Below, one piece after another: positions 1-64,000 of a stretch of 64,000 nucleotides of DNA (position 1 is the first letter of the stretch; each line of letters starts with the position of its first letter). This DNA comes from Siphonodentalium dalli (Eukaryota; Mollusca; Scaphopoda; Gadilida; Siphonodentaliidae), in assembly GCA_032622095.1 (NCBI GenBank), contig CP136061.1:23004991-23068990 (forward strand), written 5' to 3'. The notes below the pieces were generated by a model that was given only the letters and a program-made list of their open reading frames with translations, did not search any database and was not told the origin of the DNA. A program made the position numbers and the translations under genes.

Positions 1-432
1 TTTTCGAAGGATTTATGGTTCTAACCCAGAGATTCATGAATACAACTCAGGGATTTATGACTTTTTCGAAGGATTTGTGGCTCTAACCCAGATATTCATG
101 ATTACAACTCAGGGATTTATGACTTTTTCGAAGGATTTGTGGCTCTAACCCAGAGATTCATGAATACAACGCAGGGATTTATGACTTTTTCGAAGGATTT
201 GTGGCTCTAACCCAGAGATTCGTGAATAGAACTCAGGGATTTATGACTTTTTCGAAGGATTTATGGTTCTAACCCAGAGATTCATGAATAGAACGCAGGG
301 ATTTATGACTTTTTCGAAGGATTTGTGGCTCTAACCCAGAGATTCATGAATAGAACTCAGGGATTTATGACTTTTCGAAGGATTTATGGTTCTAACCCAG
401 AGATTCATGAATAGAACTCAGGGATTTATGAC

Positions 433-494
433 TTTTTCGAAGGATTTATGGTTCTAACCCAGAGATTCATGAATAGAACTCAGGGATTTATGAC
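433..494 (+). repeat. Reference monomer, commonest type (gaatag type)
   Basis: This is a clean 62-bp example of the most frequent monomer type, taken from the T5 run to the C of the following GATTTATGAC. Landmarks by monomer position: T5 tract 1-5; palindrome TTCGAA 4-9; GATTTATGG 11-19; CTAACCC 22-28; GATTCATGA 32-40, inside the 10-bp palindrome ATTCATGAAT 33-42; GAATAG 39-44; CTCAGG 47-52; GATTTATGA 53-61. Other types mostly differ at positions 16-22 (atggttc, gtggctc, atggcttt, atggctca), 28-30 (ccagag or cccgag) and 36-48 (gaatac, gactac, gattac, cacgaat, cgtgaat, aacgc). Confidence 0.95.
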
Positions 495-504
495 TTTTTC
501 GAAG
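443..504 (+). repeat. Internal trimer of ~21-bp subrepeats within the monomer
   Basis: Within one monomer period three related segments start at 443, 464 and 485, spaced 21, 21 and then 20 bp before the next monomer. They begin GATTTATGG, GATTCATGA and GATTTATGA. Segments one and two match at about 14 of 21 positions, including a shared AAC.CAG near the end. The third matches the second at about 12 of 20, being T-rich in the middle. The 62-bp unit is therefore best read as a diverged 21-mer trimer that is one base short of 63. The same periodicity holds in every monomer. Confidence 0.8.
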
Positions 505-3500
505 GATTTATGGTTCTAACCCAGAGATTCATGAATACAACGCAAGGATTTATGACCTTTTCGAAGGATTTATGGCTCTAACCCCGAGATTCATGACTAC
601 AACTCAGGGATTTATGACTTTTTCGAAGGATTTATGGTTCTAACCCAGAGATTCATGAATAGAACTAAGGGATTTATGACTTTTTCGAAGGATTTATGGT
701 TCTAACCCAGAGATTCATGAATAGAACTCAGGGATTTATGACTTTTTCGAAGGATTTATGGTTCTAACCCAGAGATTCATGAATAGAACTCAGGGATTTA
801 TGACTTTTTCGAAGGATTTATGGCTTTAACCCCGAGATTCATGAATAGAACTCAGGGATTTATGACTTTTTCGAAGGATTTATGGTTCTAACCCAGAGAT
901 TCATGAATAGAACTCAGGGATTTATGACTTTTTCGAAGGATTTATGGCTTTAACCCCGAGATTCATGACTACAACTCAGGGATTTATGACTTTTTCGAAG
1001 GATTTATGGCTCATACCCCGAGATTCATGACTACAACTCAGGGATTTATGACTTTTTCGAAGGATTTATGGTTCTAACCCAGAGATTCATGAATACAACT
1101 CAGGGATTTATGACTTTTTCGAAGGATTTGTGGCTCTAACCCAGAGATTCATGAATAGAACTCAGGGATTTATGACTTTTTCGAAGGATTTGTGGCTCTA
1201 ACCCAGAGATTCATGAATACAACGCAGGGATTTATGACTTTTTCGAAGGATTTGTGGCTCTAACCCAGAGATTCGTGAATACAACGCAAGGATTTATGAC
1301 CTTTTCGAAGGATTTATGGCTCTAACCCCGAGATTCATGACTACAACTCAGGGATTTATGACTTTTTCGAAGGATTTATGGTTCTAACCCAGAGATTCAT
1401 GAATACAACTCAGGGATTTATGACTTTTTCGAAGGATTTATGGTTCTAACCCAGAGATTCATGAATAGAACTCAGGGATTTATGACTTTTTCGAAGGATT
1501 TATGGGTTTAACCCCGAGATTCATGACTACAACTCAGGGATTTATGACTTTTTCGAAGGATTTATGGTTCTAACCCAGAGATTCATGAATACAACTCAGG
1601 GATTTATGACTTTTTCGAAGGATTTGTGGCTCTAACCCAGAGATTCATGATTACAACTCAGGGATTTATGACTTTTTCGAAGGATTTGTGGCTCTAACCC
1701 AGAGATTCATGAATACAACGCAAGGATTTATGACCTTTTCGAAGGATTTATGGCTCTAACCCCGAGATTCATGACTACAACTCAGGGATTTATGACTTTT
1801 TCGAAGGATTTATGGTTCTAACCCAGAGATTCATGAATAGAACTCAGGGATTTATGACTTTTTCGAAGGATTTATGGTTCTAACCCAGAGATTCATGAAT
1901 AGAACTCAGGGATTTAAGACTTTTTCGAAGGATTTATAGTTCTAACCCAGAGATTCATGAATAGAACTCAGGGATTTATGACTTTTTCGAAGGATTTATG
2001 GCTTTAACCCCGAGATTCATGACTACAACTCAGGGATTTATGACTTTTTCGAAGGATTTATGGTTCTAACCCAGAGATTCATGAATACAACTCAGGGATT
2101 TATGACTTTTTCGAAGGATTTATGGTTCTAACCCAGAGATTCATGAATACAACTCAGGGATTTATGACTTTTTCGAAGGATTTGTGGCTCTAACCCAGAG
2201 ATTCATGATTACAACTCAGGGATTTATGACTTTTTCGAAGGATTTGTGGCTCTAACCCAGAGATTCATGAATACAACGCAGGGATTTATGACTTTTTCGA
2301 AGGATTTGTGGCTCTAACCCAGAGATTCATGAATACAACGCAAGGATTTATGACATTTTCGAAGGATTTATGGCTCTAACCCCGAGATTCATGACTACAA
2401 CTCAGGGATTTATGACTTTTTCGAAGGATTTATGGTTCTAACCCAGAGATTCATGAATACAACGCAGGGATTTATGACTTTTTCGAAGGATTTGTGGCTC
2501 TAACCCAGAGATTCATGAATACAACGCAAGGATTTATGACCTTTTCGAAGGATTTATGGCTCTAACCCCGAGATTCATGACTACAACTCAGGGATTTATG
2601 ACTTTTTCGAAGGATTTATGGTTCTAACCCAGAGATTCATGAATAGAACTAAGGGATTTATGACTTTTTCGAAGGATTTATGGTTCTAACCCAGAGATTC
2701 ATGAATAGAACTCAGGGATTTATGACTTTTTCGAAGGATTTATGGTTCTAACCCAGAGATTCATGAATAGAACTCAGGGATTTATGACTTTTTCGAAGGA
2801 TTTATGGCTTTAACCCCGAGATTCATGACTACAACTCAGGGATTTATGACTTTTTCGAAGGATTTATGGCTCATACCCCGAGATTCATGACTACAACTCA
2901 GGGATTTATGACTTTTTCGAAGGATTTATGGTTCTAACCCAGAGATTCATGAATACAACTCAGGGATTTATGACTTTTTCGAAGGATTTGTGGCTCTAAC
3001 CCAGAGATTCATGAATAGAACTCAGGGATTTATGACTTTTTCGAAGGATTTGTGGCTCTAACCCAGAGATTCATGAATACAACGCAGGGATTTTTGACTT
3101 TTTCGAAGGATTTGTGGCTCTAACCCAGAGATTCGTGAATACAACGCAAGGATTTATGACCTTTTCGAAGGATTTATGGCTCTAACCCCGAGATTCATGA
3201 CTACAACTCAGGGATTTATGACTTTTTCGAAGGATTTATGGTTCTAACCCAGAGATTCATGAATACAACTCAGGGATTTATGACTTTTTCGAAGGATTTA
3301 TGGTTCTAACCCAGAGATTCGTGAATAGAACTCAGGGATTTATGACTTTTTCGAAGGATTTATGGCTTTAACCCCGAGATTCATGACTACAACTCAGGGA
3401 TTTATGACTTTTTCGAAGGATTTATGGTTCTAACCCAGAGATTCATGAATACAACTCAGGGATTTATGACTGTTTCGAAGGATTTGTGGCTCTAACCCAG

Positions 3501-4958
3501 AGATTCATGATTACAACTCAGGGATTTATGACTTTTTCGAAGGATTTGTGGCTCTAACCCAGAGATTCATGAATACAACGCAGGGATTTATGACCTTTTC
3601 GAAGGATTTATGGCTCTAACCCCGAGATTCATGACTACAACTCAGGGATTTATGACTTTTTCGAAGGATTTATGGTTCTAACCCAGAGATTCATGAATAG
3701 AACTCAGGGATTTATGACCTTTTCGAAGGATTTATGGCTCTAACCCCGAGATTCATGACTACAACTCAGGGATTTATGACTTTTTCGAAGGATTTATGGT
3801 TCTAACCCAGAGATTCATGAATAGAACTCAGGGATTTATGACTTTTTCGAAGGATTTATGGTTCTAACCCAGAGATTCATGAATAGAACTCAGGGATTTA
3901 TGACTTTTTCGAAGGATTTATGGTTCTAACCCAGAGATTCATGAATAGAACTCAGGGATTTATGATTTTTTCGAAGGATTTGTGGCTCTAACCCAGAGAT
4001 TCATGATTACAACTCAGGGATTTATGACTTTTTCGAAGGATTTGTGGCTCTAACCCAGAGATTCATGAATACAACGCAAGGATTTATGACCTTTTCGAAG
4101 GATTTATGGCTCTAACCCCGAGATTCATGACTACAACTCAGGGATTTATGACTTTTTCGAAGGATTTATGGTTCTAACCCAGAGATTCATGAATAGAACT
4201 CAGGGATTTATGACTTTTTCGAAGGATTTATGGTTCTAACCCAGAGATTCATGAATAGAACTCAGGGATTTATGACTTTTTCGAAGGATTTATGGTTCTA
4301 ACCCAGAGATTCATGAATAGAACTCAGGGATTTATGACTTTTTCGAAGGATTTATGGCTTTAACCCCGAGATTCATGACTACAACTCAGGGATTTATGAC
4401 TTTTTCGAAGGATTTATGGTTCTAACCCAGAGATTCATGAATACAACTCAGGGATTTATGACTTTTTCGAAGGATTTATGGTTCTAACCCAGAGATTCAT
4501 GAATACAACTCAGGGATTTATGACTTTTTCGAAGGATTTGTGGCTCTAACCCAGAGATTCATGATTACAACTCAGGGATTTATGACTTTTTCGAAAGATT
4601 TGTGACTCTAACCCAGAGATTCATGAATACAACTCCGGGATTTATGACTTTTCGAAGGATTTATGGCTCAAACCCCGAGATTCATGACTACAACTCAGGG
4701 ATTTATGACCTTTTCGAAGGATTTATGGTTCTAACCCAGAGATTCACGAATAGAACTCAGGGATTTATGACTTTTTCGAAGGATTTATGGTTCTAACCCA
4801 GAGATTCATGAATAGAACTCAGGGATTTATGACTTTTTCGAAGGATTTATGGTTCTAACCCAGAGATTCATGAATAGAACTCAGGGATTTATGACTTTTT
4901 CGAAGGATTTATGGCTTTAACCCCGAGATTCATGACTACAACTCAGGGATTTATGACT

Positions 4959-6873
4959 TTTTCGAAGGATTTATGGTTCTAACCCAGAGATTCATGAATA
5001 CAACTCAGGGATTTATGACTTTTTCGAAGGATTTGTGGCTCTAACCCAGATATTCATGATTACAACTCAGGGATTTATGACTTTTTCGAAGGATTTGTGG
5101 CTCTAACCCAGAGATTCATGAATACAACGCAGGGATTTATGACTTTTTCGAAGGATTTGTGGCTCTAACCCAGAGATTCGTGAATAGAACTCAGGGATTT
5201 ATGACTTTTTCGAAGGATTTATGGTTCTAACCCAGAGATTCATGAATAGAACGCAGGGATTTATGACTTTTTCGAAGGATTTGTGGCTCTAACCCAGAGA
5301 TTCATGAATAGAACTCAGGGATTTATGACTTTTCGAAGGATTTATGGTTCTAACCCAGAGATTCATGAATAGAACTCAGGGATTTATGACTTTTTCGAAG
5401 GATTTATGGTTCTAACCCAGAGATTCATGAATAGAACTCAGGGATTTATGACTTTTTCGAAGGATTTATGGTTCTAACCCAGAGATTCATGAATACAACG
5501 CAAGGATTTATGACCTTTTCGAAGGATTTATGGCTCTAACCCCGAGATTCATGACTACAACTCAGGGATTTATGACTTTTTCGAAGGATTTATGGTTCTA
5601 ACCCAGAGATTCATGAATAGAACTAAGGGATTTATGACTTTTTCGAAGGATTTATGGTTCTAACCCAGAGATTCATGAATAGAACTCAGGGATTTATGAC
5701 TTTTTCGAAGGATTTATGGTTCTAACCCAGAGATTCATGAATAGAACTCAGGGATTTATGACTTTTTCGAAGGATTTATGGCTTTAACCCCGAGATTCAT
5801 GAATAGAACTCAGGGATTTATGACTTTTTCGAAGGATTTATGGTTCTAACCCAGAGATTCATGAATAGAACTCAGGGATTTATGACTTTTTCGAAGGATT
5901 TATGGCTTTAACCCCGAGATTCATGACTACAACTCAGGGATTTATGACTTTTTCGAAGGATTTATGGCTCATACCCCGAGATTCATGACTACAACTCAGG
6001 GATTTATGACTTTTTCGAAGGATTTATGGTTCTAACCCAGAGATTCATGAATACAACTCAGGGATTTATGACTTTTTCGAAGGATTTGTGGCTCTAACCC
6101 AGAGATTCATGAATAGAACTCAGGGATTTATGACTTTTTCGAAGGATTTGTGGCTCTAACCCAGAGATTCATGAATACAACGCAGGGATTTATGACTTTT
6201 TCGAAGGATTTGTGGCTCTAACCCAGAGATTCGTGAATACAACGCAAGGATTTATGACCTTTTCGAAGGATTTATGGCTCTAACCCCGAGATTCATGACT
6301 ACAACTCAGGGATTTATGACTTTTTCGAAGGATTTATGGTTCTAACCCAGAGATTCATGAATACAACTCAGGGATTTATGACTTTTTCGAAGGATTTATG
6401 GTTCTAACCCAGAGATTCATGAATAGAACTCAGGGATTTATGACTTTTTCGAAGGATTTATGGGTTTAACCCCGAGATTCATGACTACAACTCAGGGATT
6501 TATGACTTTTTCGAAGGATTTATGGTTCTAACCCAGAGATTCATGAATACAACTCAGGGATTTATGACTTTTTCGAAGGATTTGTGGCTCTAACCCAGAG
6601 ATTCATGATTACAACTCAGGGATTTATGACTTTTTCGAAGGATTTGTGGCTCTAACCCAGAGATTCATGAATACAACGCAAGGATTTATGACCTTTTCGA
6701 AGGATTTATGGCTCTAACCCCGAGATTCATGACTACAACTCAGGGATTTATGACTTTTTCGAAGGATTTATGGTTCTAACCCAGAGATTCATGAATAGAA
6801 CTCAGGGATTTATGACTTTTTCGAAGGATTTATGGTTCTAACCCAGAGATTCATGAATAGAACTCAGGGATTT
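4959..6873. repeat. Segmental copy B (offset 4,958 bp)
   Basis: Second copy of the segment at 1-1,915, sharing all its rare marker words, including the cccagatattc variant and a 61-bp monomer (5,330-5,390). After about 6,873 it does not continue like the first copy; it returns to an earlier HOR phase through a 1,178-bp duplication. Confidence 0.88.
5632..6809. repeat. 19-monomer (1,178 bp) tandem duplication, copy 1
   Basis: The words ctttaaccccgagattcatg followed by aatag (near 5,782), ggctcatacccc (5,968) and gggtttaacccc (6,461) recur exactly 1,178 bp later. 1,178 equals 19 x 62. Breakpoints are uncertain by about one monomer, because neighbouring gaatag monomers are nearly identical. Confidence 0.75.
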
Positions 6874-7987
6874 ATGACTTTTTCGAAGGATTTATGGTTC
6901 TAACCCAGAGATTCATGAATAGAACTCAGGGATTTATGACTTTTTCGAAGGATTTATGGCTTTAACCCCGAGATTCATGAATAGAACTCAGGGATTTATG
7001 ACTTTTTCGAAGGATTTATGGTTCTAACCCAGAGATTCATGAATAGAACTCAGGGATTTATGACTTTTTCGAAGGATTTATGGCTTTAACCCCGAGATTC
7101 ATGACTACAACTCAGGGATTTATGACTTTTTCGAAGGATTTATGGCTCATACCCCGAGATTCATGACTACAACTCAGGGATTTATGACTTTTTCGAAGGA
7201 TTTATGGTTCTAACCCAGAGATTCATGAATACAACTCAGGGATTTATGACTTTTTCGAAGGATTTGTGGCTCTAACCCAGAGATTCATGAATAGAACTCA
7301 GGGATTTATGACTTTTTCGAAGGATTTGTGGCTCTAACCCAGAGATTCATGAATACAACGCAGGGATTTATGACTTTTTCGAAGGATTTGTGGCTCTAAC
7401 CCAGAGATTCGTGAATACAACGCAAGGATTTATGACCTTTTCGAAGGATTTATGGCTCTAACCCCGAGATTCATGACTACAACTCAGGGATTTATGACTT
7501 TTTCGAAGGATTTATGGTTCTAACCCAGAGATTCATGAATACAACTCAGGGATTTATGACTTTTTCGAAGGATTTATGGTTCTAACCCAGAGATTCATGA
7601 ATAGAACTCAGGGATTTATGACTTTTTCGAAGGATTTATGGGTTTAACCCCGAGATTCATGACTACAACTCAGGGATTTATGACTTTTTCGAAGGATTTA
7701 TGGTTCTAACCCAGAGATTCATGAATACAACTCAGGGATTTATGACTTTTTCGAAGGATTTGTGGCTCTAACCCAGAGATTCATGATTACAACTCAGGGA
7801 TTTATGACTTTTTCGAAGGATTTGTGGCTCTAACCCAGAGATTCATGAATACAACGCAAGGATTTATGACCTTTTCGAAGGATTTATGGCTCTAACCCCG
7901 AGATTCATGACTACAACTCAGGGATTTATGACTTTTTCGAAGGATTTATGGTTCTAACCCAGAGATTCATGAATAGAACTCAGGGAT
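6810..7987. repeat. 19-monomer (1,178 bp) tandem duplication, copy 2
   Basis: Second copy of 5,632-6,809, carrying the same marker words near 6,960, 7,146 and 7,639. It explains why offsets between the first 5 kb and the 7-10 kb region are 6,136 bp, that is 4,958 plus 1,178. Breakpoints are approximate. Confidence 0.75.
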
Positions 7988-9005
7988 TTATGACTTTTTC
8001 GAAGGATTTATGGTTCTAACCCAGAGATTCATGAATAGAACTCAGGGATTTAAGACTTTTTCGAAGGATTTATAGTTCTAACCCAGAGATTCATGAATAG
8101 AACTCAGGGATTTATGACTTTTTCGAAGGATTTATGGCTTTAACCCCGAGATTCATGACTACAACTCAGGGATTTATGACTTTTTCGAAGGATTTATGGT
8201 TCTAACCCAGAGATTCATGAATACAACTCAGGGATTTATGACTTTTTCGAAGGATTTATGGTTCTAACCCAGAGATTCATGAATACAACTCAGGGATTTA
8301 TGACTTTTTCGAAGGATTTGTGGCTCTAACCCAGAGATTCATGATTACAACTCAGGGATTTATGACTTTTTCGAAGGATTTGTGGCTCTAACCCAGAGAT
8401 TCATGAATACAACGCAGGGATTTATGACTTTTTCGAAGGATTTGTGGCTCTAACCCAGAGATTCATGAATACAACGCAAGGATTTATGACATTTTCGAAG
8501 GATTTATGGCTCTAACCCCGAGATTCATGACTACAACTCAGGGATTTATGACTTTTTCGAAGGATTTATGGTTCTAACCCAGAGATTCATGAATACAACG
8601 CAGGGATTTATGACTTTTTCGAAGGATTTGTGGCTCTAACCCAGAGATTCATGAATACAACGCAAGGATTTATGACCTTTTCGAAGGATTTATGGCTCTA
8701 ACCCCGAGATTCATGACTACAACTCAGGGATTTATGACTTTTTCGAAGGATTTATGGTTCTAACCCAGAGATTCATGAATAGAACTAAGGGATTTATGAC
8801 TTTTTCGAAGGATTTATGGTTCTAACCCAGAGATTCATGAATAGAACTCAGGGATTTATGACTTTTTCGAAGGATTTATGGTTCTAACCCAGAGATTCAT
8901 GAATAGAACTCAGGGATTTATGACTTTTTCGAAGGATTTATGGCTTTAACCCCGAGATTCATGACTACAACTCAGGGATTTATGACTTTTTCGAAGGATT
9001 TATGG
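7146..9005. repeat. 30-monomer HOR unit, 1,860 bp (Block I type)
   Basis: Bounded by successive ggctcatacccc monomers at 7,146 and 9,006, exactly 30 x 62 bp apart. An equivalent unit lies between 1,010 and 2,870. It contains the run gatttaagac, tatagttc at about 8,050-8,076 that recurs 1,860 bp later near 9,931. It contains no 61-bp monomer. Confidence 0.75.
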
Positions 9006-11350
9006 CTCATACCCCGAGATTCATGACTACAACTCAGGGATTTATGACTTTTTCGAAGGATTTATGGTTCTAACCCAGAGATTCATGAATACAACTCAGG
9101 GATTTATGACTTTTTCGAAGGATTTGTGGCTCTAACCCAGAGATTCATGAATAGAACTCAGGGATTTATGACTTTTTCGAAGGATTTGTGGCTCTAACCC
9201 AGAGATTCATGAATACAACGCAGGGATTTATGACTTTTTCGAAGGATTTGTGGCTCTAACCCAGAGATTCGTGAATACAACGCAAGGATTTATGACCTTT
9301 TCGAAGGATTTATGGCTCTAACCCCGAGATTCATGACTACAACTCAGGGATTTATGACTTTTTCGAAGGATTTATGGTTCTAACCCAGAGATTCATGAAT
9401 ACAACTCAGGGATTTATGACTTTTTCGAAGGATTTATGGTTCTAACCCAGAGATTCATGAATAGAACTCAGGGATTTATGACTTTTTCGAAGGATTTATG
9501 GCTTTAACCCCGAGATTCATGACTACAACTCAGGGATTTATGACTTTTTCGAAGGATTTATGGTTCTAACCCAGAGATTCATGAATACAACTCAGGGATT
9601 TATGACTTTTTCGAAGGATTTGTGGCTCTAACCCAGAGATTCATGATTACAACTCAGGGATTTATGACTTTTTCGAAGGATTTGTGGCTCTAACCCAGAG
9701 ATTCATGAATACAACGCAGGGATTTATGACCTTTTCGAAGGATTTATGGCTCTAACCCCGAGATTCATGACTACAACTCAGGGATTTATGACTTTTTCGA
9801 AGGATTTATGGTTCTAACCCAGAGATTCATGAATAGAACTCAGGGATTTATGACTTTTTTGAAGGATTTATGGTTCTAACCCAGAGATTCATGAATAGAA
9901 CTCAGGGATTTAAGACTTTTTCGAAGGATTTATAGTTCTAACCCAGAGATTCATGAATAGAACTCAGGGATTTATGACTTTTTCGAAGGATTTATGGCTT
10001 TAACCCCGAGATTCATGACTACAACTCAGGGATTTATGACTTTTTCGAAGGATTTATGGTTCTAACCCAGAGATTCATGAATACAACTCAGGGATTTATG
10101 ACTTTTTCGAAGGATTTATGGTTCTAACCCAGAGATTCATGAATACAACTCAGGGATTTATGACTTTTTCGAAGGATTTGTGGCTCTAACCCAGAGATTC
10201 ATGATTACAACTCAGGGATTTATGACTTTTTCGAAGGATTTGTGGCTCTAACTCAGAGATTCATGAATACAACTAAGAGATTTATGACTTTTCGAAAGAT
10301 TTATGGCTCAAACCCCGAGATTCATGACTACAACTCAGGGATTTATGACTTTTTCGAAGGATTTATGGCTTTAACCCCGAGATTCATGACTACAACTCAG
10401 GGATTTATGACTTTTTCGAAGGATTTATGGTTCTAACCCAGAGATTCATGAATACAACTCAGGGATTTATGACTTTTTCGAAGGATTTGTGGCTCTAACC
10501 CAGAGATTCATGATTACAACTCAGGGATTTATGACTTTTTCGAAGGATTTGTGGCTCTAACCCAGAGATTCATGAATACAACGCAGGGATTTATGACTTT
10601 TTCGAAGGATTTGTGGCTCTAACCCAGAGATTCGTGAATACAACGCAAGGATTTATGACCTTTTCGAAGGATTTATGGCTCTAACCCCGAGATTCATGAC
10701 TACAACTCAGGGATTTATGACTTTTTCGAAGGATTTATGGTTCTAACCCAGAGATTCATGAATACAACTCAGGGATTTATGACTTTTTCGAAGGATTTGT
10801 GGCTCTAACCCAGAGATTCATGATTACAACTCAGGGATTTATGACTTTTTCGAAGGATTTGTGGCTCTAACCCAGAGATTCATGAATACAACGCAGGGAT
10901 TTATGACTTTTTCGAAGGATTTGTGGCTCTAACCCAGAGATTCGTGAATACAACGCAAGGATTTATGACCTTTTCGAAGGATTTGTGGCTCTAACCCAGA
11001 GATTCATGAATAGAACTCAGGGATTTATGACTTTTTCGAAGGATTTATGGTTCTAACCCAGAGATTCATGAATAGAACTCAGGGATTTATGACTTTTTCG
11101 AAGGATTTATGGTTCTAACCCAGAGATTCATGAATAGAACTCAGGGATTTATGACTTTTTCGAAGGATTTATGGTTTTAACCCCGAGATTCATGACTACA
11201 ACTCAGGGATTTATGACTTTTTCGAAGGATTTATGGTTCTAACCCAGAGATTCATGAATACAACGCAAGGATTTATGACATTTTCGAAGGATTTATGGCT
11301 CTAACCCCGAGATTCATGACTACAACTCAGGGATTTATGACTTTTTCGAA

Positions 11351-12900
11351 GGATTGATGGTTCTAACCCAGAGATTCATGAATAGAACTAAGGGATTTAT
11401 GACTTTTTCGAAGGATTTATGGTTCTAACCCAGAGATTCATGAATAGAACTCAGGGATTTATGACTTTTTCGAAGGATTTATGGCTTTAACCCCGAGATT
11501 CATGACTACAACTCAGGGATTTATGACTTTTTCGAAGGATTTATGGCTTTAACCCCGAGATTCATGACTACAACTCAGGGATTTATGACTTTTTCGAAGG
11601 ATTTATGGTTCTAACCCAGAGATTCATGAATACAACTCAGGGATTTATGACTTTTTCGAAGGATTTGTGGCTCTAACCCAGAGATTCATGAATGCAACGC
11701 AGGGATTTATGACTTTTTCGAAGGATTTGTGGCTCTAACCCAGAGATTCATGAATACAACGCAAGGATTTATGACTTTTTCGAAGGATTTATGGCTCAAA
11801 CCCCGAGATTCATGACTACAACTCAGGGATTTATGACTTTTTCGAAGGATTTATGGTTCTATCCCAGAGATTCACGAATAGAACTCAGGGATTTATGACT
11901 TTTTCGAAGGATTTATGGTTCTAACCCAGAGATTCATGAATAGAACTCAGGGATTTATGACTTTTTCGAAGGATTTATGGTTCTAACCCAGAGATTCATG
12001 AATAGAACTCAGGGATTTATGACTTTTTCGAAGGATTTATGGCTTTAACCACGAGATTCATGACTACAACTCAGGGATTTATGACTTCTTCGAAGGATTT
12101 ATGGTTCTAACCCAGAGATTCATGAATACAACTCAGGGATTTATGACTTTTTCGAAGGATTTGTGGCTCTAACCCAGAGATTCATTATTACAACTCAGGG
12201 ATTTATGACTTTTTCGAAGGATTTGTGGCTCTAACCCAGAGATTCATGAATACAACGCAGGGATTTATGACTTTTTCGAAGGATTTGTGGCTCTAACCCA
12301 GAGATTCATGAATACAACGCAAGGATTTATGACATTTTCGAAGGATTTATGGCTCTAACCCCGAGATTCATGACTACAACTCAGGGATTTATGACTTTTT
12401 CGAAGGATTTATGGTTCTAACCCAGAGATTCATGAATACAACGCAGGGATTTATGACTTTTTCGAAGGATTTGTGGCTCTAACCCAGAGATTCGTGAATA
12501 CAACGCAAGGATTTATGACCTTTTCGAAGGATTTGTGGCTCTAACCCAGAGATTCATGAATAGAACTCAGGGATTTATGACTTTTTCGAAGGATTTATGG
12601 TTCTAACCCAGAGATTCATGAATAGAACTCAGGGATTTATGACTTTTTCGAAGGATTTATGGTTCTAACCCAGAGATTCATGAATAGAACTCAGGGATTT
12701 ATGACTTTTTCGAAGGATTTATGGTTTTAACCCCGAGATTCATGACTACAACTCAGGGATTTATGACTTTTTCGAAGGATTTATGGTTCTAACCCAAAGA
12801 TTCATGAATACAACGCAAGGATTTATGACATTTTCGAAGGATTTATGGCTCTAACCCCGAGATTCATGACTACAACTCAGGGATTTATGACTTTTTCGAA
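11351..12900. repeat. 25-monomer HOR, 1,550 bp (type II unit)
   Basis: Starts at the marker monomer ggattgatggttc with aactaagg. Monomer order: gaatag; two ctttaacccc; gaatac; aatgcaacgc; aacgcaagg; ctcaaacccc; ctatccc with cacgaat; two gaatag; ccacgag followed by gacttcttcg; gaatac; cattattac; aacgcagg; aacgcaagg with gacatttt; ctctaacccc; aacgcagg; cgtgaat with gacctttt; gtggctc gaatag; two gaatag; gttttaacccc; cccaaag with aacgcaagg; ctctaacccc. This is the fullest version of the Block II unit. Confidence 0.88.
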
Positions 12901-24556: not shown

Positions 24557-24748
24557 GGATTTATGGTTCTAACCCAGAGATTCATGAATAGAACTCAGGG
24601 ATTTATGACTTTTTCGAAGGATTTATGGTTCTAACCCAGAGATTCATGAATAGAACTCAGGGATTTATGACTTTTTCGAAGGATTTATGGTTCTAACCCA
24701 GAGATTCATGAATAGAACTCAGGGATTTATGACTTTTTCGAAGGATTT

Positions 24749-50100: not shown

Positions 50101-51629
50101 CTAACCCAGAGATTCATGAATAGAACTCAGGGATTTATGACTTTTTCGAAGGATTTATGGCTTTTACCCCGAGATTCATGACTACAACTCAGGGATTTAT
50201 GACTTTTTCGATGGATTTATGGTTCTAACCCAGAGATTCATTAATACAACTCAGGGATTTATGACTTTTTCGAAGGATTTGTGGCTCTAACCCAGAGATT
50301 CATGATTACAACTCAGGGATTTATGACTTTTTCGAAGGATTTGTGGCTCTAACCCAAAGATTCATGAATACAACGCAAGGATTTATGACCTTTTCGAAGG
50401 ATTTATGGCTCTAACCCCAAGATTCATGACTACAACTCAGGGATTTATGACTTTTTCGAAGGATTTATGGCTCAAACCTCGAGATTCATGAATACAACTC
50501 AGGGATTTATGACTTTTTCGAAGGATTTATGGTTCTAACCCAGAGATTCACGAATAGAACTCAGGGATTTATGACTTTTTCGAAGGATTTATGGTTCTAA
50601 CCCAGAGATTCATGAATAGAACTCAGGGATTTATGACTTTTTCGAAGGATTTATGGTTCTAACCCAGAGATTCATGAATAGAACTCAGGGATTTATGACT
50701 TTTTCGAAGGATTTATGGTTCTAACCCAGATATTCATGAATAGAACTCAGGGATTTATGACTTTTTCGAAGGATTTATGGCTTTAACCCCGAGATTCATG
50801 ACTACAACTCAGGGATTTATGACTTTTTCGCAGGATTTATGGTTCTAACCCAGAGATTCATGAATACAACTCAGGGATTTATGACTTTTTCGAAGGATTT
50901 ACGGTTCTAACCCAGAGATTCATGAATACAACTCAGGGATTTATGACTTTTTCGAAGGATTTGTGGCTCTAACCCAGAGATTCATGATTACAACTCAGGG
51001 ATTTATGACTTTTTCGAAGGATTTGTGGCTCTAACCCAGAGATTCATGAATACAACGCAAGGATTTATGACCTTTTCGAAGGATTTATGGCTCTAACCCC
51101 AAGATTCATGACTACAACTCAGGGATTTATGACTTTTTCGAAGGATTTATGGTTCTAACCCAGAGATTCATGAATAGAACTCAGGGATTTATGACTTTTT
51201 CGAAGGATTTATGGTTCTAACCCAGAGATTCATGAATAGAACTCAGGGATTTATGACTTTTTCGAAGGATTTATGGTTCTAACCCAGAGATTCATGAATA
51301 GAACTCAGGGATTTATGACTTTTTCGAAGGATTTATGGCTTTAACCCCGAGATTCATGACTACAACTCAGGGATTTATGACTTTTTCGAAGGATTTATGG
51401 TTCTAACCCAGAGATTCATGAATACAACTCAGGGATTTATGACTTTTTCGAAGGATTTATGGTTCTAACCCAGAGATTCATGAATACAACTCAGGGATTT
51501 ATGACTTTTTCGAAGGATTTGTGGCTCTAACCCAGAGATTCATGATTACAACTCAGGGATTTATGACTTTTTCGAAGGATTTGTGGCTCTAACCCAGAGA
51601 TTCATGAATACAACTCAGGCATTTATGAC

Positions 51630-51751
51630 TTTTCGAAGGATTTATGGCTCAAACCTCGAGATTCATGAATACAACTCAGGGATTTATGACTTTTCGAAGG
51701 ATTTATGGTTCTAACCCAGAGATTCACGAATAGAACTCAGGGATTTATGAC
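51630..51751 (+). repeat. Two consecutive 61-bp monomers
   Basis: 51,630-51,690 and 51,691-51,751 both have four Ts before CGAAGG. Adjacent short monomers occur only here and in the duplicate at 57,454-57,575. Elsewhere, 61-bp monomers are single. Confidence 0.9.
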
Positions 51752-53874
51752 TTTTTCGAAGGATTTATGGTTCTAACCCAGAGATTCATGAATAGAACTC
51801 AGGGATTTATGACTTTTTCGAAGGATTTATGGTTCTAACCCAGAGATTCATGAATAGAACTCAGGGATTTATGACTTTTTCGAAGGATTTATGGCTTTAA
51901 CCCCGAGATTCATAACTACAACTCAGGGATTTATGACTTTTTCGAAGGATTTATGGTTCTAACCCAGAGATTCATGAATACAACTCAGGGATTTATGACT
52001 TTTTCGAAGGATTTGTGGCTCTAACCCAGAGATTCATTATTACAACTCAGGGATTTATGACTTTTTCGAAGGATTTGTGGCTCTAACCCAGAGATTCATG
52101 AATACAACGCAGGGATTTATGACTTTTTCGAAGGATTTGTGGCTCTAACCCAGAGATTCATGAATACAACGCAAGGATTTATGACATTTTCGAAGGATTT
52201 ATGGCTCTAACCCCGAGATTCATGACTACAACTCAGGGATTTATGACTTTTTCGAAGGATTTATGGTTCTAACCCAGAGATTCATGAATAGAACTCAGGG
52301 ATTTATGACTTTTTCGAAGGATTTATGGTTCTAACCCAGAGATTAATGAATAGAACTCAGGGATTTATGACTTTTTCGAAGGATTTATGGTTCTAACCCA
52401 GAGATTCATGAATACAACGCAGGGATTTATGACTTTTTCGAAGGATTTGTGGCTCTAACCCAGAGATTCGTGAATACAACGCAAGGATTTATGACCTTTT
52501 CGAAGGATTTATGGCTCTAACCCCGAGATTCATGACTACAACTCAGGGATTTATGACTTTTTCGAAGGATTTATGGTTCTAACCCAGAGATTCATGAATA
52601 GAACTCAGGGATTTATGACTTTTTCGAAGGATTTATGGTTCTAACCCAGAGATTCATGAATAGAACTCAGGGATTTATGACTTTTTCGAAGGATTTATGG
52701 CTTTAACCCCGACATTCATGACTACAACTCGGGGATTTATGACTTTTTCGAAGGATTTATGGTTCTAACCCAGAGATTCATGAATACAACTCAGGGATTT
52801 ATGACTTTTTCGAAGGATTTGTGGCTCTAACCCAGAGATTCATGAATACAACGCAGGGATTTATGACTTTTTCGAAGGATTTATGGCTCTAACCCAGAGA
52901 TTCATGAATACAACGCAAGGATTTATGACTTTTTCGAAGGATTTATGGCTCAAACCCCGAGATTCATGACTACAACTCAGGGATTTATGACTTTTTTGAA
53001 GGATTTATGGTTCTAACCCAGAGATTCACGAATAGAACTCAGGGATTTATGACTTTTTCGAAGGATTTATGGTTCTAACCCAGAGATTCATGAATAGAAC
53101 TCAGGGATTTATGACTTTTTCGAAGGATTTATGGTTCTAACCCAGAGATTCATGAATAGAACTCAGGGATTTATGACTTTTTCGAAGGATTTATGGCTTT
53201 TACCCCGAGATTCATGACTACAACTCAGGGATTTATGACTTTTTCGATGGATTTATGGTTCTAACCCAGAGATTCATTAATACAACTCAGGGATTTATGA
53301 CTTTTTCGAAGGATTTGTGGCTCTAACCCAGAGATTCATGATTACAACTCAGGGATTTATGACTTTTTCGAAGGATTTGTGGCTCTAACCCAGAGATTCA
53401 TGAATACAACGCAAGGATTTATGACCTTTTCGAAGGATTTATGGCTCTAACCCCAAGATTCATGACTACAACTCAGGGATTTATGACTTTTTCGAAGGAT
53501 TTATGGTTCTAACCCAGAGATTCATGAATAGAACTCAGGGATTTATGACTTTTTCGAAGGATTTATGGTTCTAACCCAGAGATTCATGAATAGAACTCAG
53601 GGAATTATGACTTTTTCGAAGAATTTATGGTTCTAACCCAGAGATTCATGAATAGAACTCAGGGATTTATGACTTTTTCGAAGGATTTATGGCTTTAACC
53701 CCGAGATTCATGACTACAACTCAGGGATTTATGACTTTTTCGAAGGATTTATGGTTCTAACCCAGAGATTCATGAATACAACTCAGGGATTTATGACTTT
53801 TTCGAAGGATTTGTGGCTCTAACCCAGAGATTCATGATTACAACTCAGGGATTTATGACTTTTTCGAAGGATTT

Positions 53875-55113
53875 GTGGCTCTAACCCAGAGATTCATGAA
53901 TACAACTCAGGGATTTATGACGTTTCGAAGGATTTATGGCTCAAACCCCGAGATTCATGACTACAACTCAGGGATTTATGACTTTTTTGAAGGATTTATG
54001 GTTCTAACCCAGAGATTCACGAATAGAACTCAGGGATTTATGACTTTTTCGAAGGATTTATGGTTCTAACCCAGAGATTCATGAATAGAACTCAGGGATT
54101 TATGACTTTTTCGAAGGATTTATGGTTCTAACCCAGAGATTCATGAATAGAACTCAGGGATTTATGACTTTTTCGAAGGATTTATGGCTTTAACCCCGAG
54201 ATTCATGACTACAACTCAGGGATTTATGACTTTTTCGAAGGATTTATGGTTCTAACCCAGAGATTCATGAATACAACTCAGGGATTTATGACTTTTTCGA
54301 AGGATTTATGGTTCTAACCCAGAGATTCATGAATAGAACTCATGGATTTATGACTTTTTCGAAGGATTTATGGCTTTAACCCCGAGATTCATGACTACAA
54401 CTCAGGGATTTATGACTTTTTCGAAGGATTTATGGTTCTAACCCAGAGATTCAAGAATACAACTCAGGGATTTATGACTTTTTCGAAGGATTTGTGGCTC
54501 TAACCCAGAGATTCATGATTACAACTCAGGGATTTATGACTTTTTCGAAGGATTTGTGGCTCTAACCCAGAGATTCATGAATACAACGCAAGGATTTATG
54601 ACCTTTTCGAAGGATTTATTGCTCTAACCCCAAGATTCATGACTACAACTCAGGGATTTGTGACTTTTTCGAAGGATTTATGGTTCTAACCCAGAGATTC
54701 ATGAATAGAACTCAGGGATTTATGACTTTTTCGAAGGATTTATGGTTCTAACCCAGAGATTCATGAATAGAACTCAGGGATTTATGACTTTTTCGAAGGA
54801 TTTATGGTTCTAACCCAGAGATTCATGAATAGAACTCAGGGATTTATGACTTTTTCGAAGGATTTATGGCTTTAACCCCGAGATTCATGACTACAACTCA
54901 GGGATTTATGACTTTTTCGAAGGATTTATGGTTCTAACCCAGAGATTCATGAATACAACTCAGGGATTTATGACTTTTTCGAAGGATTTATGGTTCTAAC
55001 CCAGAGATTCATGAATACAACTCAGGGATTTATGACTTTTTCGAAGGATTTGTGGCTCTAACCCAGAGATTCATGATTACAACTCAGGGATTTATGACTT
55101 TTTCGAAGGATTT
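53875..55113. repeat. 20-monomer unit, 1,239 bp (copy 2 of 3)
   Basis: Same marker combination as 39,374-40,612 (aactcatgg, ttcaagaatac, tattgctc, gatttgtgac near 54,657), embedded in the first 5,824-bp copy. Confidence 0.84.
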
Positions 55114-57453
55114 GTGGCTCTAACCCAGAGATTCATGAATACAACTCAGGGATTTATGACTTTTCGAAGGATTTATGGCTCAAACCTCGAGATTCATGAA
55201 TACAACTCAGGGATTTATGACTTTTTCGAAGGATTTATGGTTCTAACCCAGAGATTCACGAATAGAACTCAGGGATTTATGACTTTTTCGAAGGATTTAT
55301 GGTTCTAAGCCAGAGATTCATGAATAGAACTCAGGGATTTATGACTTTTTCGAAGGATTTATGGTTCTAACCCAGAGATTCATGAATAGAACTCAGGGAT
55401 TTATGACTTTTTCGAAGGATTTATGGCTTTAACCCCGAGATTCATGACTACAACTCAGGGATTTATGACTTTTTCGAAGGATTTATGGTTCTAACCCAGA
55501 GATTCATGAATACAACTCAGGGATTTATGACTTTTTCGAAGGATTTGTGGCTCTAACCCAGAGATTCATTATTACAACTCAGGGATTTATGACTTTTTCG
55601 AAGGATTTGTGGCTCTAACCCAGAGATTCATGAATACAACGCAGGGATTTATGACTTTTTCGAAGGATTTGTGGCTCTAACCCAGAGATTCATGAATACA
55701 ACGCAAGGATTTATGACATTTTCGAAGGATTTATGGCTCTAACCCCGAGATTCATGACTACAACTCAGGGATTTATGACTTTTTTGAAGGATTTATGGTT
55801 CTAACCCAGAGATTCACGAATAGAACTCAGGGATTTATGACTTTTTCGAAGGATTTATGGTTCTAACCCAGAGATTCATGAATAGAACTCAGGGATTTAT
55901 GACTTTTTCGAAGGATTTATGGTTCTAACCCAGAGATTCATGAATAGAACTCAGGGATTTATGACTTTTTCGAAGGATTTATGGCTTTTACCCCGAGATT
56001 CATGACTACAACTCAGGGATTTATGACTTTTTCGATGGATTTATGGTTCTAACCCAGAGATTCATTAATACAACTCAGGGATTTATGACTTTTTCGAAGG
56101 ATTTGTGGCTCTAACCCAGAGATTCATGATTACAACTCAGGGATTTATGACTTTTTCGAAGGATTTGTGGCTCTAACCCAGAGATTCATGAATACAACGC
56201 AAGGATTTATGACCTTTTCGAAGGATTTATGGCTCTAACCCCAAGATTCATGACTACAACTCAGGGATTTATGACTTTTTCGAAGGATTTATGGCTCAAA
56301 CCTCGAGATTCATGAATACAACTCAGGGATTTATGACTTTTTCGAAGGATTTATGGTTCTAACCCAGAGATTCACGAATAGAACTCAGGGATTTATGACT
56401 TTTTCGAAGGATTTATGGTTCTAACCCAGAGATTCATGAATAGAACTCAGGGATTTATGACTTTTTCGAAGGATTTATGGTTCTAACCCAGAGATTCATG
56501 AATAGAACTCAGGGATTTATGACTTTTTCGAAGGATTTATGGTTCTAACCCAGATATTCATGAATAGAACTCAGGGATTTATGACTTTTTCGAAGGATTT
56601 ATGGCTTTAACCCCGAGATTCATGACTACAACTCAGGGATTTATGACTTTTTCGCAGGATTTATGGTTCTAACCCAGAGATTCATGAATACAACTCAGGG
56701 ATTTATGACTTTTTCGAAGGATTTACGGTTCTAACCCAGAGATTCATGAATACAACTCAGGGATTTATGACTTTTTCGAAGGATTTGTGGCTCTAACCCA
56801 GAGATTCATGATTACAACTCAGGGATTTATGACTTTTTCGAAGGATTTGTGGCTCTAACCCAGAGATTCATGAATACAACGCAAGGATTTATGACCTTTT
56901 CGAAGGATTTATGGCTCTAACCCCAAGATTCATGACTACAACTCAGGGATTTATGACTTTTTCGAAGGATTTATGGTTCTAACCCAGAGATTCATGAATA
57001 GAACTCAGGGATTTATGACTTTTTCGAAGGATTTATGGTTCTAACCCAGAGATTCATGAATAGAACTCAGGGATTTATGACTTTTTCGAAGGATTTATGG
57101 TTCTAACCCAGAGATTCATGAATAGAACTCAGGGATTTATGACTTTTTCGAAGGATTTATGGCTTTAACCCCGAGATTCATGACTACAACTCAGGGATTT
57201 ATGACTTTTTCGAAGGATTTATGGTTCTAACCCAGAGATTCATGAATACAACTCAGGGATTTATGACTTTTTCGAAGGATTTATGGTTCTAACCCAGAGA
57301 TTCATGAATACAACTCAGGGATTTATGACTTTTTCGAAGGATTTGTGGCTCTAACCCAGAGATTCATGATTACAACTCAGGGATTTATGACTTTTTCGAA
57401 GGATTTGTGGCTCTAACCCAGAGATTCATGAATACAACTCAGGGATTTATGAC

Positions 57454-57575
57454 TTTTCGAAGGATTTATGGCTCAAACCTCGAGATTCATGAATACAACT
57501 CAGGGATTTATGACTTTTCGAAGGATTTATGGTTCTAACCCAGAGATTCACGAATAGAACTCAGGGATTTATGAC
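57454..57575 (+). repeat. Two consecutive 61-bp monomers (duplicate)
   Basis: Counterpart of 51,630-51,751 within the second 5,824-bp copy. Confidence 0.9.
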
Positions 57576-59698
57576 TTTTTCGAAGGATTTATGGTTCTAA
57601 CCCAGAGATTCATGAATAGAACTCAGGGATTTATGACTTTTTCGAAGGATTTATGGTTCTAACCCAGAGATTCATGAATAGAACTCAGGGATTTATGACT
57701 TTTTCGAAGGATTTATGGCTTTAACCCCGAGATTCATAACTACAACTCAGGGATTTATGACTTTTTCGAAGGATTTATGGTTCTAACCCAGAGATTCATG
57801 AATACAACTCAGGGATTTATGACTTTTTCGAAGGATTTGTGGCTCTAACCCAGAGATTCATTATTACAACTCAGGGATTTATGACTTTTTCGAAGGATTT
57901 GTGGCTCTAACCCAGAGATTCATGAATACAACGCAGGGATTTATGACTTTTTCGAAGGATTTGTGGCTCTAACCCAGAGATTCATGAATACAACGCAAGG
58001 ATTTATGACATTTTCGAAGGATTTATGGCTCTAACCCCGAGATTCATGACTACAACTCAGGGATTTATGACTTTTTCGAAGGATTTATGGTTCTAACCCA
58101 GAGATTCATGAATAGAACTCAGGGATTTATGACTTTTTCGAAGGATTTATGGTTCTAACCCAGAGATTAATGAATAGAACTCAGGGATTTATGACTTTTT
58201 CGAAGGATTTATGGTTCTAACCCAGAGATTCATGAATACAACGCAGGGATTTATGACTTTTTCGAAGGATTTGTGGCTCTAACCCAGAGATTCGTGAATA
58301 CAACGCAAGGATTTATGACCTTTTCGAAGGATTTATGGCTCTAACCCCGAGATTCATGACTACAACTCAGGGATTTATGACTTTTTCGAAGGATTTATGG
58401 TTCTAACCCAGAGATTCATGAATAGAACTCAGGGATTTATGACTTTTTCGAAGGATTTATGGTTCTAACCCAGAGATTCATGAATAGAACTCAGGGATTT
58501 ATGACTTTTTCGAAGGATTTATGGCTTTAACCCCGACATTCATGACTACAACTCGGGGATTTATGACTTTTTCGAAGGATTTATGGTTCTAACCCAGAGA
58601 TTCATGAATACAACTCAGGGATTTATGACTTTTTCGAAGGATTTGTGGCTCTAACCCAGAGATTCATGAATACAACGCAGGGATTTATGACTTTTTCGAA
58701 GGATTTATGGCTCTAACCCAGAGATTCATGAATACAACGCAAGGATTTATGACTTTTTCGAAGGATTTATGGCTCAAACCCCGAGATTCATGACTACAAC
58801 TCAGGGATTTATGACTTTTTTGAAGGATTTATGGTTCTAACCCAGAGATTCACGAATAGAACTCAGGGATTTATGACTTTTTCGAAGGATTTATGGTTCT
58901 AACCCAGAGATTCATGAATAGAACTCAGGGATTTATGACTTTTTCGAAGGATTTATGGTTCTAACCCAGAGATTCATGAATAGAACTCAGGGATTTATGA
59001 CTTTTTCGAAGGATTTATGGCTTTTACCCCGAGATTCATGACTACAACTCAGGGATTTATGACTTTTTCGATGGATTTATGGTTCTAACCCAGAGATTCA
59101 TTAATACAACTCAGGGATTTATGACTTTTTCGAAGGATTTGTGGCTCTAACCCAGAGATTCATGATTACAACTCAGGGATTTATGACTTTTTCGAAGGAT
59201 TTGTGGCTCTAACCCAGAGATTCATGAATACAACGCAAGGATTTATGACCTTTTCGAAGGATTTATGGCTCTAACCCCAAGATTCATGACTACAACTCAG
59301 GGATTTATGACTTTTTCGAAGGATTTATGGTTCTAACCCAGAGATTCATGAATAGAACTCAGGGATTTATGACTTTTTCGAAGGATTTATGGTTCTAACC
59401 CAGAGATTCATGAATAGAACTCAGGGAATTATGACTTTTTCGAAGGATTTATGGTTCTAACCCAGAGATTCATGAATAGAACTCAGGGATTTATGACTTT
59501 TTCGAAGGATTTATGGCTTTAACCCCGAGATTCATGACTACAACTCAGGGATTTATGACTTTTTCGAAGGATTTATGGTTCTAACCCAGAGATTCATGAA
59601 TACAACTCAGGGATTTATGACTTTTTCGAAGGATTTGTGGCTCTAACCCAGAGATTCATGATTACAACTCAGGGATTTATGACTTTTTCGAAGGATTT

Positions 59699-60937
59699 GT
59701 GGCTCTAACCCAGAGATTCATGAATACAACTCAGGGATTTATGACGTTTCGAAGGATTTATGGCTCAAACCCCGAGATTCATGACTACAACTCAGGGATT
59801 TATGACTTTTTTGAAGGATTTATGGTTCTAACCCAGAGATTCACGAATAGAACTCAGGGATTTATGACTTTTTCGAAGGATTTATGGTTCTAACCCAGAG
59901 ATTCATGAATAGAACTCAGGGATTTATGACTTTTTCGAAGGATTTATGGTTCTAACCCAGAGATTCATGAATAGAACTCAGGGATTTATGACTTTTTCGA
60001 AGGATTTATGGCTTTAACCCCGAGATTCATGACTACAACTCAGGGATTTATGACTTTTTCGAAGGATTTATGGTTCTAACCCAGAGATTCATGAATACAA
60101 CTCAGGGATTTATGACTTTTTCGAAGGATTTATGGTTCTAACCCAGAGATTCATGAATAGAACTCATGGATTTATGACTTTTTCGAAGGATTTATGGCTT
60201 TAACCCCGAGATTCATGACTACAACTCAGGGATTTATGACTTTTTCGAAGGATTTATGGTTCTAACCCAGAGATTCAAGAATACAACTCAGGGATTTATG
60301 ACTTTTTCGAAGGATTTGTGGCTCTAACCCAGAGATTCATGATTACAACTCAGGGATTTATGACTTTTTCGAAGGATTTGTGGCTCTAACCCAGAGATTC
60401 ATGAATACAACGCAAGGATTTATGACCTTTTCGAAGGATTTATTGCTCTAACCCCAAGATTCATGACTACAACTCAGGGATTTGTGACTTTTTCGAAGGA
60501 TTTATGGTTCTAACCCAGAGATTCATGAATAGAACTCAGGGATTTATGACTTTTTCGAAGGATTTATGGTTCTAACCCAGAGATTCATGAATAGAACTCA
60601 GGGATTTATGACTTTTTCGAAGGATTTATGGTTCTAACCCAGAGATTCATGAATAGAACTCAGGGATTTATGACTTTTTCGAAGGATTTATGGCTTTAAC
60701 CCCGAGATTCATGACTACAACTCAGGGATTTATGACTTTTTCGAAGGATTTATGGTTCTAACCCAGAGATTCATGAATACAACTCAGGGATTTATGACTT
60801 TTTCGAAGGATTTATGGTTCTAACCCAGAGATTCATGAATACAACTCAGGGATTTATGACTTTTTCGAAGGATTTGTGGCTCTAACCCAGAGATTCATGA
60901 TTACAACTCAGGGATTTATGACTTTTTCGAAGGATTT
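59699..60937. repeat. 20-monomer unit, 1,239 bp (copy 3 of 3)
   Basis: Same marker combination as 53,875-55,113 displaced by 5,824 bp, embedded in the second 5,824-bp copy (gatttgtgac near 60,481). Confidence 0.84.
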
Positions 60938-61568
60938 GTGGCTCTAACCCAGAGATTCATGAATACAACTCAGGGATTTATGACTTTTCGAAGGATTTAT
61001 GGCTCAAACCTCGAGATTCATGAATACAACTCAGGGATTTATGACTTTTTCGAAGGATTTATGGTTCTAACCCAGAGATTCACGAATAGAACTCAGGGAT
61101 TTATGACTTTTTCGAAGGATTTATGGTTCTAAGCCAGAGATTCATGAATAGAACTCAGGGATTTATGACTTTTTCGAAGGATTTATGGTTCTAACCCAGA
61201 GATTCATGAATAGAACTCAGGGATTTATGACTTTTTCGAAGGATTTATGGCTTTAACCCCGAGATTCATGACTACAACTCAGGGATTTATGACTTTTTCG
61301 AAGGATTTATGGTTCTAACCCAGAGATTCATGAATACAACTCAGGGATTTATGACTTTTTCGAAGGATTTGTGGCTCTAACCCAGAGATTCATTATTACA
61401 ACTCAGGGATTTATGACTTTTTCGAAGGATTTGTGGCTCTAACCCAGAGATTCATGAATACAACGCAGGGATTTATGACTTTTTCGAAGGATTTGTGGCT
61501 CTAACCCAGAGATTCATGAATACAACGCAAGGATTTATGACATTTTCGAAGGATTTATGGCTCTAACC

Positions 61569-64000
61569 CCGAGATTCATGACTACAACTCAGGGATTTAT
61601 GACTTTTTCGAAGGATTTATGGTTCTAACCCAGAGATTCATGAATAGAACTCAGGGATTTATGACTTTTTCGAAGGATTTATGGTTCTAACCCAGAGATT
61701 AATGAATAGAACTCAGGGATTTATGACTTTTTCGAAGGATTTATGGTTCTAACCCAGAGATTCATGAATACAACGCAGGGATTTATGACTTTTTCGAAGG
61801 ATTTGTGGCTCTAACCCAGAGATTCGTGAATACAACGCAAGGATTTATGACCTTTTCGAAGGATTTATGGCTCTAACCCCGAGATTCATGACTACAACTC
61901 AGGGATTTATAACTTTTTCGAAGGATTTATGGTTCTAACCCAGAGATTCATGAATAGAACTCAGGGATTTATGACTTTTTCGAAGGATTTATGGTTCTAA
62001 CCCAGAGATTCATGAATAGAACTCAGGGATTTATGACTTTTTCGAAGGATTTATGGCTTTAACCCCGAGATTCATGACTACAACTCGGGGATTTATGACT
62101 TTTTCGAAGGATTTATGGTTCTAACCCAGAGATTCATGAATACAACTCAGGGATTTATGACTTTTTCGAAGGATTTGTGGCTCTAACCCAGAGATTCATG
62201 AATACAACGCAGGGATTTATGACTTTTTCGAAGGATTTATGGCTCTAACCCAGAGATTCATGAATACAACGCAAGGATTTATGACTTTTTCGAAGGATTT
62301 ATGGCTCAAACCCCGAGATTCATGACTACAACTCAGGGATTTATGACTTTTTTGAAGGATTTATGGTTCTAACCCAGAGATTCACGAATAGAACTCAGGG
62401 ATTTATGACTTTTTCGAAGGATTTATGGTTCTAACCCAGAGATTCATGAATAGAACTCAGGGATTTATGACTTTTTCGAAGGATTTATGGTTCTAACCCA
62501 GAGATTCATGAATAGAACTCAGGGATTTATGACTTTTTCGAAGGATTTATGGCTTTTACCCCGAGATTCATGACTACAACTCAGGGATTTATGACTTTTT
62601 CGATGGATTTATGGTTCTAACCCAGAGATTCATTAATACAACTCAGGGATTTATGACTTTATCGAAGGATTTGTGGCTCTAACCCAGAGATTCATGATTA
62701 CAACTCAGGGATTTATGACTTTTTCGAAGGATTTGTGGCTCTAACCCAGAGATTCATGAATACAACGCAAGGATTTATGACCTTTTCGAAGGATTTATGG
62801 CTCTAACCCCACGATTCATGACTACAACTCAGGGATTTATGACTTTTTCGAAGGATTTATGGTTCTAACCCAGAGATTCATGAATAGAACTCAGGGATTT
62901 ATGACTTTTTCGAAGGATTTATGGTTCTAACCCAGAGATTCATGAATAGAACTCAGGGATTTATGACTTTTTCGAAGGATTTATGGTTCTAACCCAGAGA
63001 TTCATGAATAGAACTCAGGGATTTATGACTTTTTCGAAGGATTTATGGCTTTAACCCCGAGATTCATGACTACAACTCAGGGATTTATGACTTTTTCGAA
63101 GGATTTATGGTTCTAACCCAGAGATTCATGAATACAATTCAGGGATTTATGACTTTTTCGAAGGATTTATGGTTCTAACCCAGAGATTCATGAATACAAC
63201 TCAGGGATTTATGACTTTTTCGAAGGATTTGTGGCTCTAACCCAGAGATTCATGATTACAACTCAGGGATTTATGACTTTTTCGAAGGATTTGTTGCTCT
63301 AACCCAGAGATTCATAAATACAACGCAAGGATTTATGACCTTTTCGAAGGATTTATGGCTCTAACCCCAAGATTCATGACTACAACTCAGGGATTTATGA
63401 CTTTTTCGAAGGATTTATGGTTCTAACCCAGAGATTCATGAATAGAACTCAGGGATTTATGACTTTTTCGAAGGATTTATGGTTCTAACCCAGAGATTCA
63501 TGAATAGAACTCAGGGATTTATGACTTTTTCGAAGGATTTATGGTTCTAACCCAGAGATTCATGAATAGAACTCAGGGATTTATGACTTTTTCGAAGGAT
63601 TTATGGCTTTAACCCCGAGATTCATGACTACAACTCAGGGATTTATGACTTTTTCGAAGGATTTATGGTTCTAACCCAGAGATTCATGAATACAACTCAG
63701 GGATTTATGACTTTTTCGAAGGATTTATGGTTCTAACCCAGAGATTCATGAATACAACTCAGGGATTTATGACTTTTTCGAAGGATTTGTGGCTCTAACC
63801 CAGAGATTCATGATTACAACTCAGGGATTTATGACTTTTTCGAAGGATTTGTGGCTCTAACCCAGAGATTCGTGAATACAACTCAGGGATTTATGACTTT
63901 TCGAAGGATTTATGGCTCAAACCCCGAGATTCATGACTACAACTCAGGGATTTATGACTTTTTCGAAGGATTTAAGGTTCTAACCCAGAGATTCACGAAT
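61569..64000. repeat. Right-hand continuation of the array
   Basis: Continues the Block V monomer order (aatgaatag, aacgcagg, cgtgaat/gacctttt, ctcgggg, ctcaaacccc, cacgaat, cttttacccc, cgatggattt, cattaatac) without a sharp duplicate inside the window. Private changes include gactttatcg near 62,660, ccccacgatt near 62,811 and aattcagg near 63,138. It ends in mid-monomer, 42 bases into a cacgaat-type copy, so the array continues beyond the window. Confidence 0.85.

Follow-up and report, generated by a model that had tools for sequence, protein, structure and literature searches.

An uninterrupted 62-bp satellite array with copied multi-monomer blocks and higher-order repeats of irregular length

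Analysis of a 64,000-base stretch of DNA (the window) revealed one uninterrupted head-to-tail array of a 62-bp satellite, very probably the interior of a eukaryotic satellite array in which the main route of homogenisation has been repeated exchange, in register, of blocks of several monomers. Repeated in-register duplication of such blocks can be read directly from the order of the monomer variants. As it stands, the array is chromosome DNA of a familiar type; what is new here is a monomer that reads as three subunits, three main monomer classes arranged in a blurred 8-monomer pattern, and copied multi-monomer runs. With no insertions and with monomer variants whose order can be followed, the array lends itself to the study of how such arrays grow, and several layers of block duplication are visible within this one 64-kb piece. 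The features are located in Table 1.

Table 1. Coordinates of the array, its domains and the principal copied blocks within the 64-kb window
Feature	Coordinates	Strand	Description
Uninterrupted 62-bp satellite array	1–64,000	+	1,032 full monomers and a 41-base partial; 132 distinct; mean 4.18% from consensus
Example monomer	1–62	+	Three subunits (21+21+20); palindrome ATTCATGAAT in subunit 2; TTCGAA at the 3/1 junction
Domain D1	1–10,722	+	173 monomers, 34 distinct; leading lags 99, 129 and 80 monomers
Domain D2	10,723–24,548	+	223 monomers, 24 distinct; leading lags 195, 123 and 170, then 60, 25 and 63
Domain D3	24,549–63,959	+	636 monomers, 103 distinct; leading lags 328, 609, 385, 234, 94 and 57
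Perfect tandem duplication	10,723–18,162	+	10,723–14,442 and 14,443–18,162; 60 monomers each (3,720 bp); 0 mismatches
Tandem duplication of a 94-monomer, 5,824-bp block	49,957–61,604	+	49,957–55,780 and 55,781–61,604; 3 mismatches
Long-range copies	36,447–61,852	+	36,447–41,527 vs 56,773–61,852; 82 monomers, 328 apart; 13 mismatches, 99.74% identity

When the full 64,000 bases were aligned, with wrap-around, to a single circular consensus of 62 bases, they resolved into 1,032 full monomers plus one 41-base partial, with 63,998 bases aligned, 27 one-base deletions and 2 one-base insertions. The slot arithmetic closes (1,032 × 62 − 27 + 2 + 41 = 64,000), reproducing to the base the count of 1,032 slots, 27 losses and 2 gains given in an earlier sequence-only reading. 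Mismatches to the consensus amounted to 2,676 of the 63,998 aligned bases (4.18%), and the full monomers comprised 132 distinct sequences, 63 of them singletons. That reading had also described a single orientation and no space for an inserted element or spacer, and the alignment agrees on both: one strand carries every slot, and with no slot replaced the array leaves no place where a transposon or spacer could sit. Tandem Repeats Finder likewise reported a single array of period 62 spanning positions 1–64,000 (1,032.7 copies, 93% matches), together with a second, overlapping row of period 21. GC content stayed between 0.370 and 0.378 in all 16 of the 4-kb windows, with a slight drop from 0.377–0.378 to 0.370–0.374 at 24001–24549, close to where domain D2 gives way to D3. 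A single non-coding unit repeated head to tail over such a length is satellite DNA in the general sense. The array probably also extends beyond 64 kb, as the earlier reading proposed: the window begins and ends inside it, and neither true end lies in the window.

The description of this DNA as gene-free was upheld as far as tested. The 64-kb window gave no Rfam match at gathering scores and no tRNA, and its 17 open reading frames of at least 60 aa were all 64 aa long, which is also the length of the longest frame. Because the unit length of 62 bp is not divisible by three, stop triplets recur again and again in every frame; on this ground, and given the 64-aa maximum, a protein-coding repeat was rejected. 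An array of a known structured RNA or of tRNAs was rejected as well, there being no match to either. A stable single-strand hairpin of the consensus monomer found no support: the fold gave z values of −0.27 and −0.24 on the two strands and was equalled by 71 and 73 of 200 shuffles, respectively.

The 62-bp consensus reads as three degenerate subunits of approximately 21 bp (21+21+20), namely AAGGATTTATGGCTCTAACCC, AGAGATTCATGAATACAACTC and AGGGATTTATGACTTTTTCG. Rotational self-identity of the monomer was 33/62 at a shift of 21; among 20,000 base-shuffled monomers, 7 scored as high at one or more of the shifts 5–31. Subunit 2 of the consensus contains the perfect 10-base palindrome ATTCATGAAT, and TTCGAA lies at the junction of subunits 3 and 1. 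The CpG within TTCGAA, at monomer columns 5–6, was retained in 1,013 of 1,033 monomers; the observed/expected CpG ratio was 0.69, in a sequence so simple that this ratio says little about the host. Spectral power at 10.33 bp (62/6, the sixth harmonic) was high in three of the four dinucleotide classes tried, the fraction of 5,000 shuffles reaching it being 0.0046 for AA/TT, 0.0076 for WW and 0.0018 for purine-purine. The fourth class, SS, showed no such excess (0.30 of 5,000 shuffles reached its power), and the third harmonic of 62 fell below 0.05 in none of the four classes. The 10.33-bp signal follows partly from the three-subunit structure. Selective constraint on the columns identical among subunits was considered and found no support: these 30 columns had a mean of 2.77 events vs 2.06 for the other 32, so they were not less variable (one-sided p = 0.78; base-stratified p = 0.96).

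Monomers were assigned to classes by three diagnostic columns chosen after inspection of the data, giving 502 of class a, 260 of class b, 255 of class g and 15 others. Reading the class string by eye revealed a blurred 8-monomer pattern, baaabagg (approximately 496 bp). Class agreement was 0.50 at lag 8 and 0.44 at lag 9, vs a maximum of 0.42 over lags 1–59 in 500 shuffles of monomer order. Two further measures place the higher-order repeats (HORs) that had been proposed for this array beyond chance: the mean best-match divergence of 8-monomer windows was 0.37% vs 2.73–2.84% in 20 shuffles of monomer order, and a Lempel-Ziv parse required 206 factors vs 431–440 in 10 shuffles.

No single regular HOR period ran along the array; the leading lags differed among three domains, whose limits were drawn by eye without a change-point test (Table 1). 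Among lags 1–699, the best for the whole window was 328, with an exact match in 18% of monomers. Within D2, a 25-monomer HOR (approximately 1,550 bp) was nested in the 60- and 63-monomer blocks. The least self-similar bins lay at approximately 2.5–5.0, 9.9–12.4 and 24.8–34.7 kb (mean 0.70–1.13%), and the first part of D3 (24,549–33,843) was among the least self-similar stretches. Human alpha satellite has a 171-bp monomer and regular HORs in its active arrays. Set beside it by description, the present array is similar in its ordered, divergent monomer classes and in copied blocks that are far more alike than neighbouring monomers; it differs in its 62-bp monomer, in lacking a CENP-B box, and in HORs whose lengths vary widely, no single period being dominant.

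Comparison of monomer runs identified 50 copied pairs, 14–94 monomers long and 99.46–100% identical, of which 11 were perfect; the runs were picked for identical monomers, so their high identity is partly by construction, and the order shuffles serve as the control. They sit in monomer register at many different lags. In addition to the two tandem duplications and the long-range copies in Table 1, 57 of the 60 monomers of the perfect duplication occurred a third time at 18,349–21,882 with 0 mismatches. Mean divergence was 6.09% between adjacent monomers and 6.33% between random pairs. Blocks of several monomers are therefore more alike than the monomers inside them, as in HOR satellites generally.

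Perfect multi-kilobase copies could partly be assembly artefacts, as a mis-resolved repeat graph could also yield perfect 3,720-bp copies. Against the broader proposal that the long near-identical blocks were produced by assembly or polishing on a real but less ordered array stand the 50 copied runs, with their many lags and varied identities (99.46–100%), and the low number of monomers that are unique in sequence (63 of 1,032). We regard this proposal as very unlikely.

Homogenisation by block exchange accounts best for the observations. Neighbours diverging almost as much as random pairs (6.09% vs 6.33%) indicate that homogenisation acts mainly on blocks. Identical adjacent monomers made up 12.6% of neighbours, vs 7.5% (maximum 9.7%) in 500 order shuffles, and this excess indicates that single monomers are duplicated too, so the process is not purely one of blocks. 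Among the 36 haplotypes (of 132) with four or more occurrences, 13 common variable columns gave 78 pairs, 22 of which showed four-gamete conflicts; these conflicts suggest exchange between classes, and recurrent mutation could have given some of them. Tandem copies, the best being 5.8 kb long with 3 mismatches and 3.7 kb long with none, give good support to the proposed homogenised array with HORs, and the near-identity of these long copies suggests that homogenisation may be active. Copying in such a satellite would proceed through unequal exchange between sister chromatids, through replication-linked repair, or through both, acting between copies that are out of register. Such exchange would keep the array alike at the scale of blocks while neighbouring monomers still differ. 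A role of the array would probably be structural, in centromeric or other heterochromatin through chromatin packaging, rather than through an encoded product.

The earlier reading suggested a centromeric core or a large heterochromatic block; these are two distinct placements of the array on its chromosome, which the sequence features of the window do not tell apart, and both were weighed. The first is an active centromere core, in which CENP-A nucleosomes would occupy the array and recently copied HOR blocks would mark the kinetochore site. The long, insertion-free array in a single orientation, its HORs and its near-identical blocks are consistent with this, as are the 10-base palindrome of the consensus and the high 10.33-bp power in three of four dinucleotide classes, and three monomers measure 186 bp, which is close to one nucleosome repeat. 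However, the SS class lacks the 10.33-bp excess and part of that signal comes from the three units of approximately 21 bp, and the same features may occur in non-centromeric satellites. Nor was a CENP-B box found in the 64-kb window: against the 9 core bases of the motif, the best sites matched 7/9 and there were 0 sites with 0 or 1 mismatch. This absence weighs little, since many centromeres have no CENP-B box. Two-mismatch sites numbered 300, vs a shuffle mean of 114, and were rejected as a signal; the 200 matches listed trace to a small set of monomer variants, each present in many copies, which leaves the excess over shuffles with little meaning. Overall, we consider an active centromere core possible, if somewhat improbable.

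The second placement, to which we give about an even chance, is a non-centromeric heterochromatin block (pericentromeric, subtelomeric, or on a sex or B chromosome) that grew by neutral expansion or by drive. The sequence showed no centromere-specific mark, the subunit-identical columns showed no constraint in one test (p = 0.78), and neutral unequal exchange is enough to produce nested HORs. On the other side, the window contains no array edge or flank by which the array could be placed, and the three telomere motifs searched for on both strands (TTAGGG, TTTAGGG and TTAGG) were absent from the 64-kb window. The fullest form of the centromeric proposal is unlikely in our estimation: that an undescribed 62-bp family serves its host as the active centromere, that its hierarchy has four steps (21 bp, 62 bp, approximately 496 bp and 1.5–20 kb), that its HOR blocks have no fixed length, and that block homogenisation goes on with neither a CENP-B box nor a dominant HOR. 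Should the array prove to be centromeric, the range of centromere repeats would gain a short unit whose higher-order structure is irregular.

Searches for relatives were negative: blastn of the first 1,240 bases matched nothing among plasmids and phages, and there was no match to an exact 29-base monomer pattern in prokaryote or viral contigs or to an exact 25-base monomer pattern in prokaryote contigs; these searches may leave out records of the window's own genome or of genomes close to it. Within this prokaryotic, viral, plasmid and phage range, and in text searches, nothing contradicted the earlier reading, which recognised no named family; the eukaryotic assignment draws on the general character of such arrays and on this absence from prokaryotic collections. 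In the literature, the passages mentioning "62 bp" in PMC3694981, PMC3152781, PMC6096759 and PMC11579321 describe no satellite with a 62-bp monomer, and the main text of PMC10900743 contains no such passage. The relevant passage of PMC6096759 reports a 62-bp region within the frog satellite PcP190, and in PMC3152781 the figure 62 is merely the decimal part of a mean length. Pieces of the monomer or its complement of 12 or 14 letters appeared in PMC5507470, PMC5799248 and PMC9480990, which concern biofilm, a microRNA and C. elegans, and were taken as chance. The goat satellite SatIII, located in the centromere region and described in a passage of PMC11579321 as having a 22-bp unit, resembles the present satellite in having a short unit, of approximately 21–22 bp; unlike SatIII as described there, the satellite in the window has a fixed 62-bp monomer built of three units of approximately 21 bp.

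All 27 single-base losses were placed at the same consensus position, in a T-run at the monomer boundary. When contexts were matched with the focal column left out, the best-matching context elsewhere also lacked the base for 25 of the 27, against a background of 2.6%. Most losses were therefore passed on when blocks were copied, and sequencing error was mostly rejected as their source. For the remaining two, the majority of the closest contexts keep the T. At 51569–51690 and again at 57393–57514, two successive monomers each lack a T of the T-run, and these two pairs are copies 94 monomers apart. Since the closest contexts of the second monomer mostly keep the T, the second loss in each pair appears to have arisen shortly before the 94-monomer duplication. 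The two single-base gains were a T at 41,733, between monomer positions 19 and 20, and a C at 43,598, between positions 24 and 25; no more than 1.9 kb separates them in the 64-kb array.
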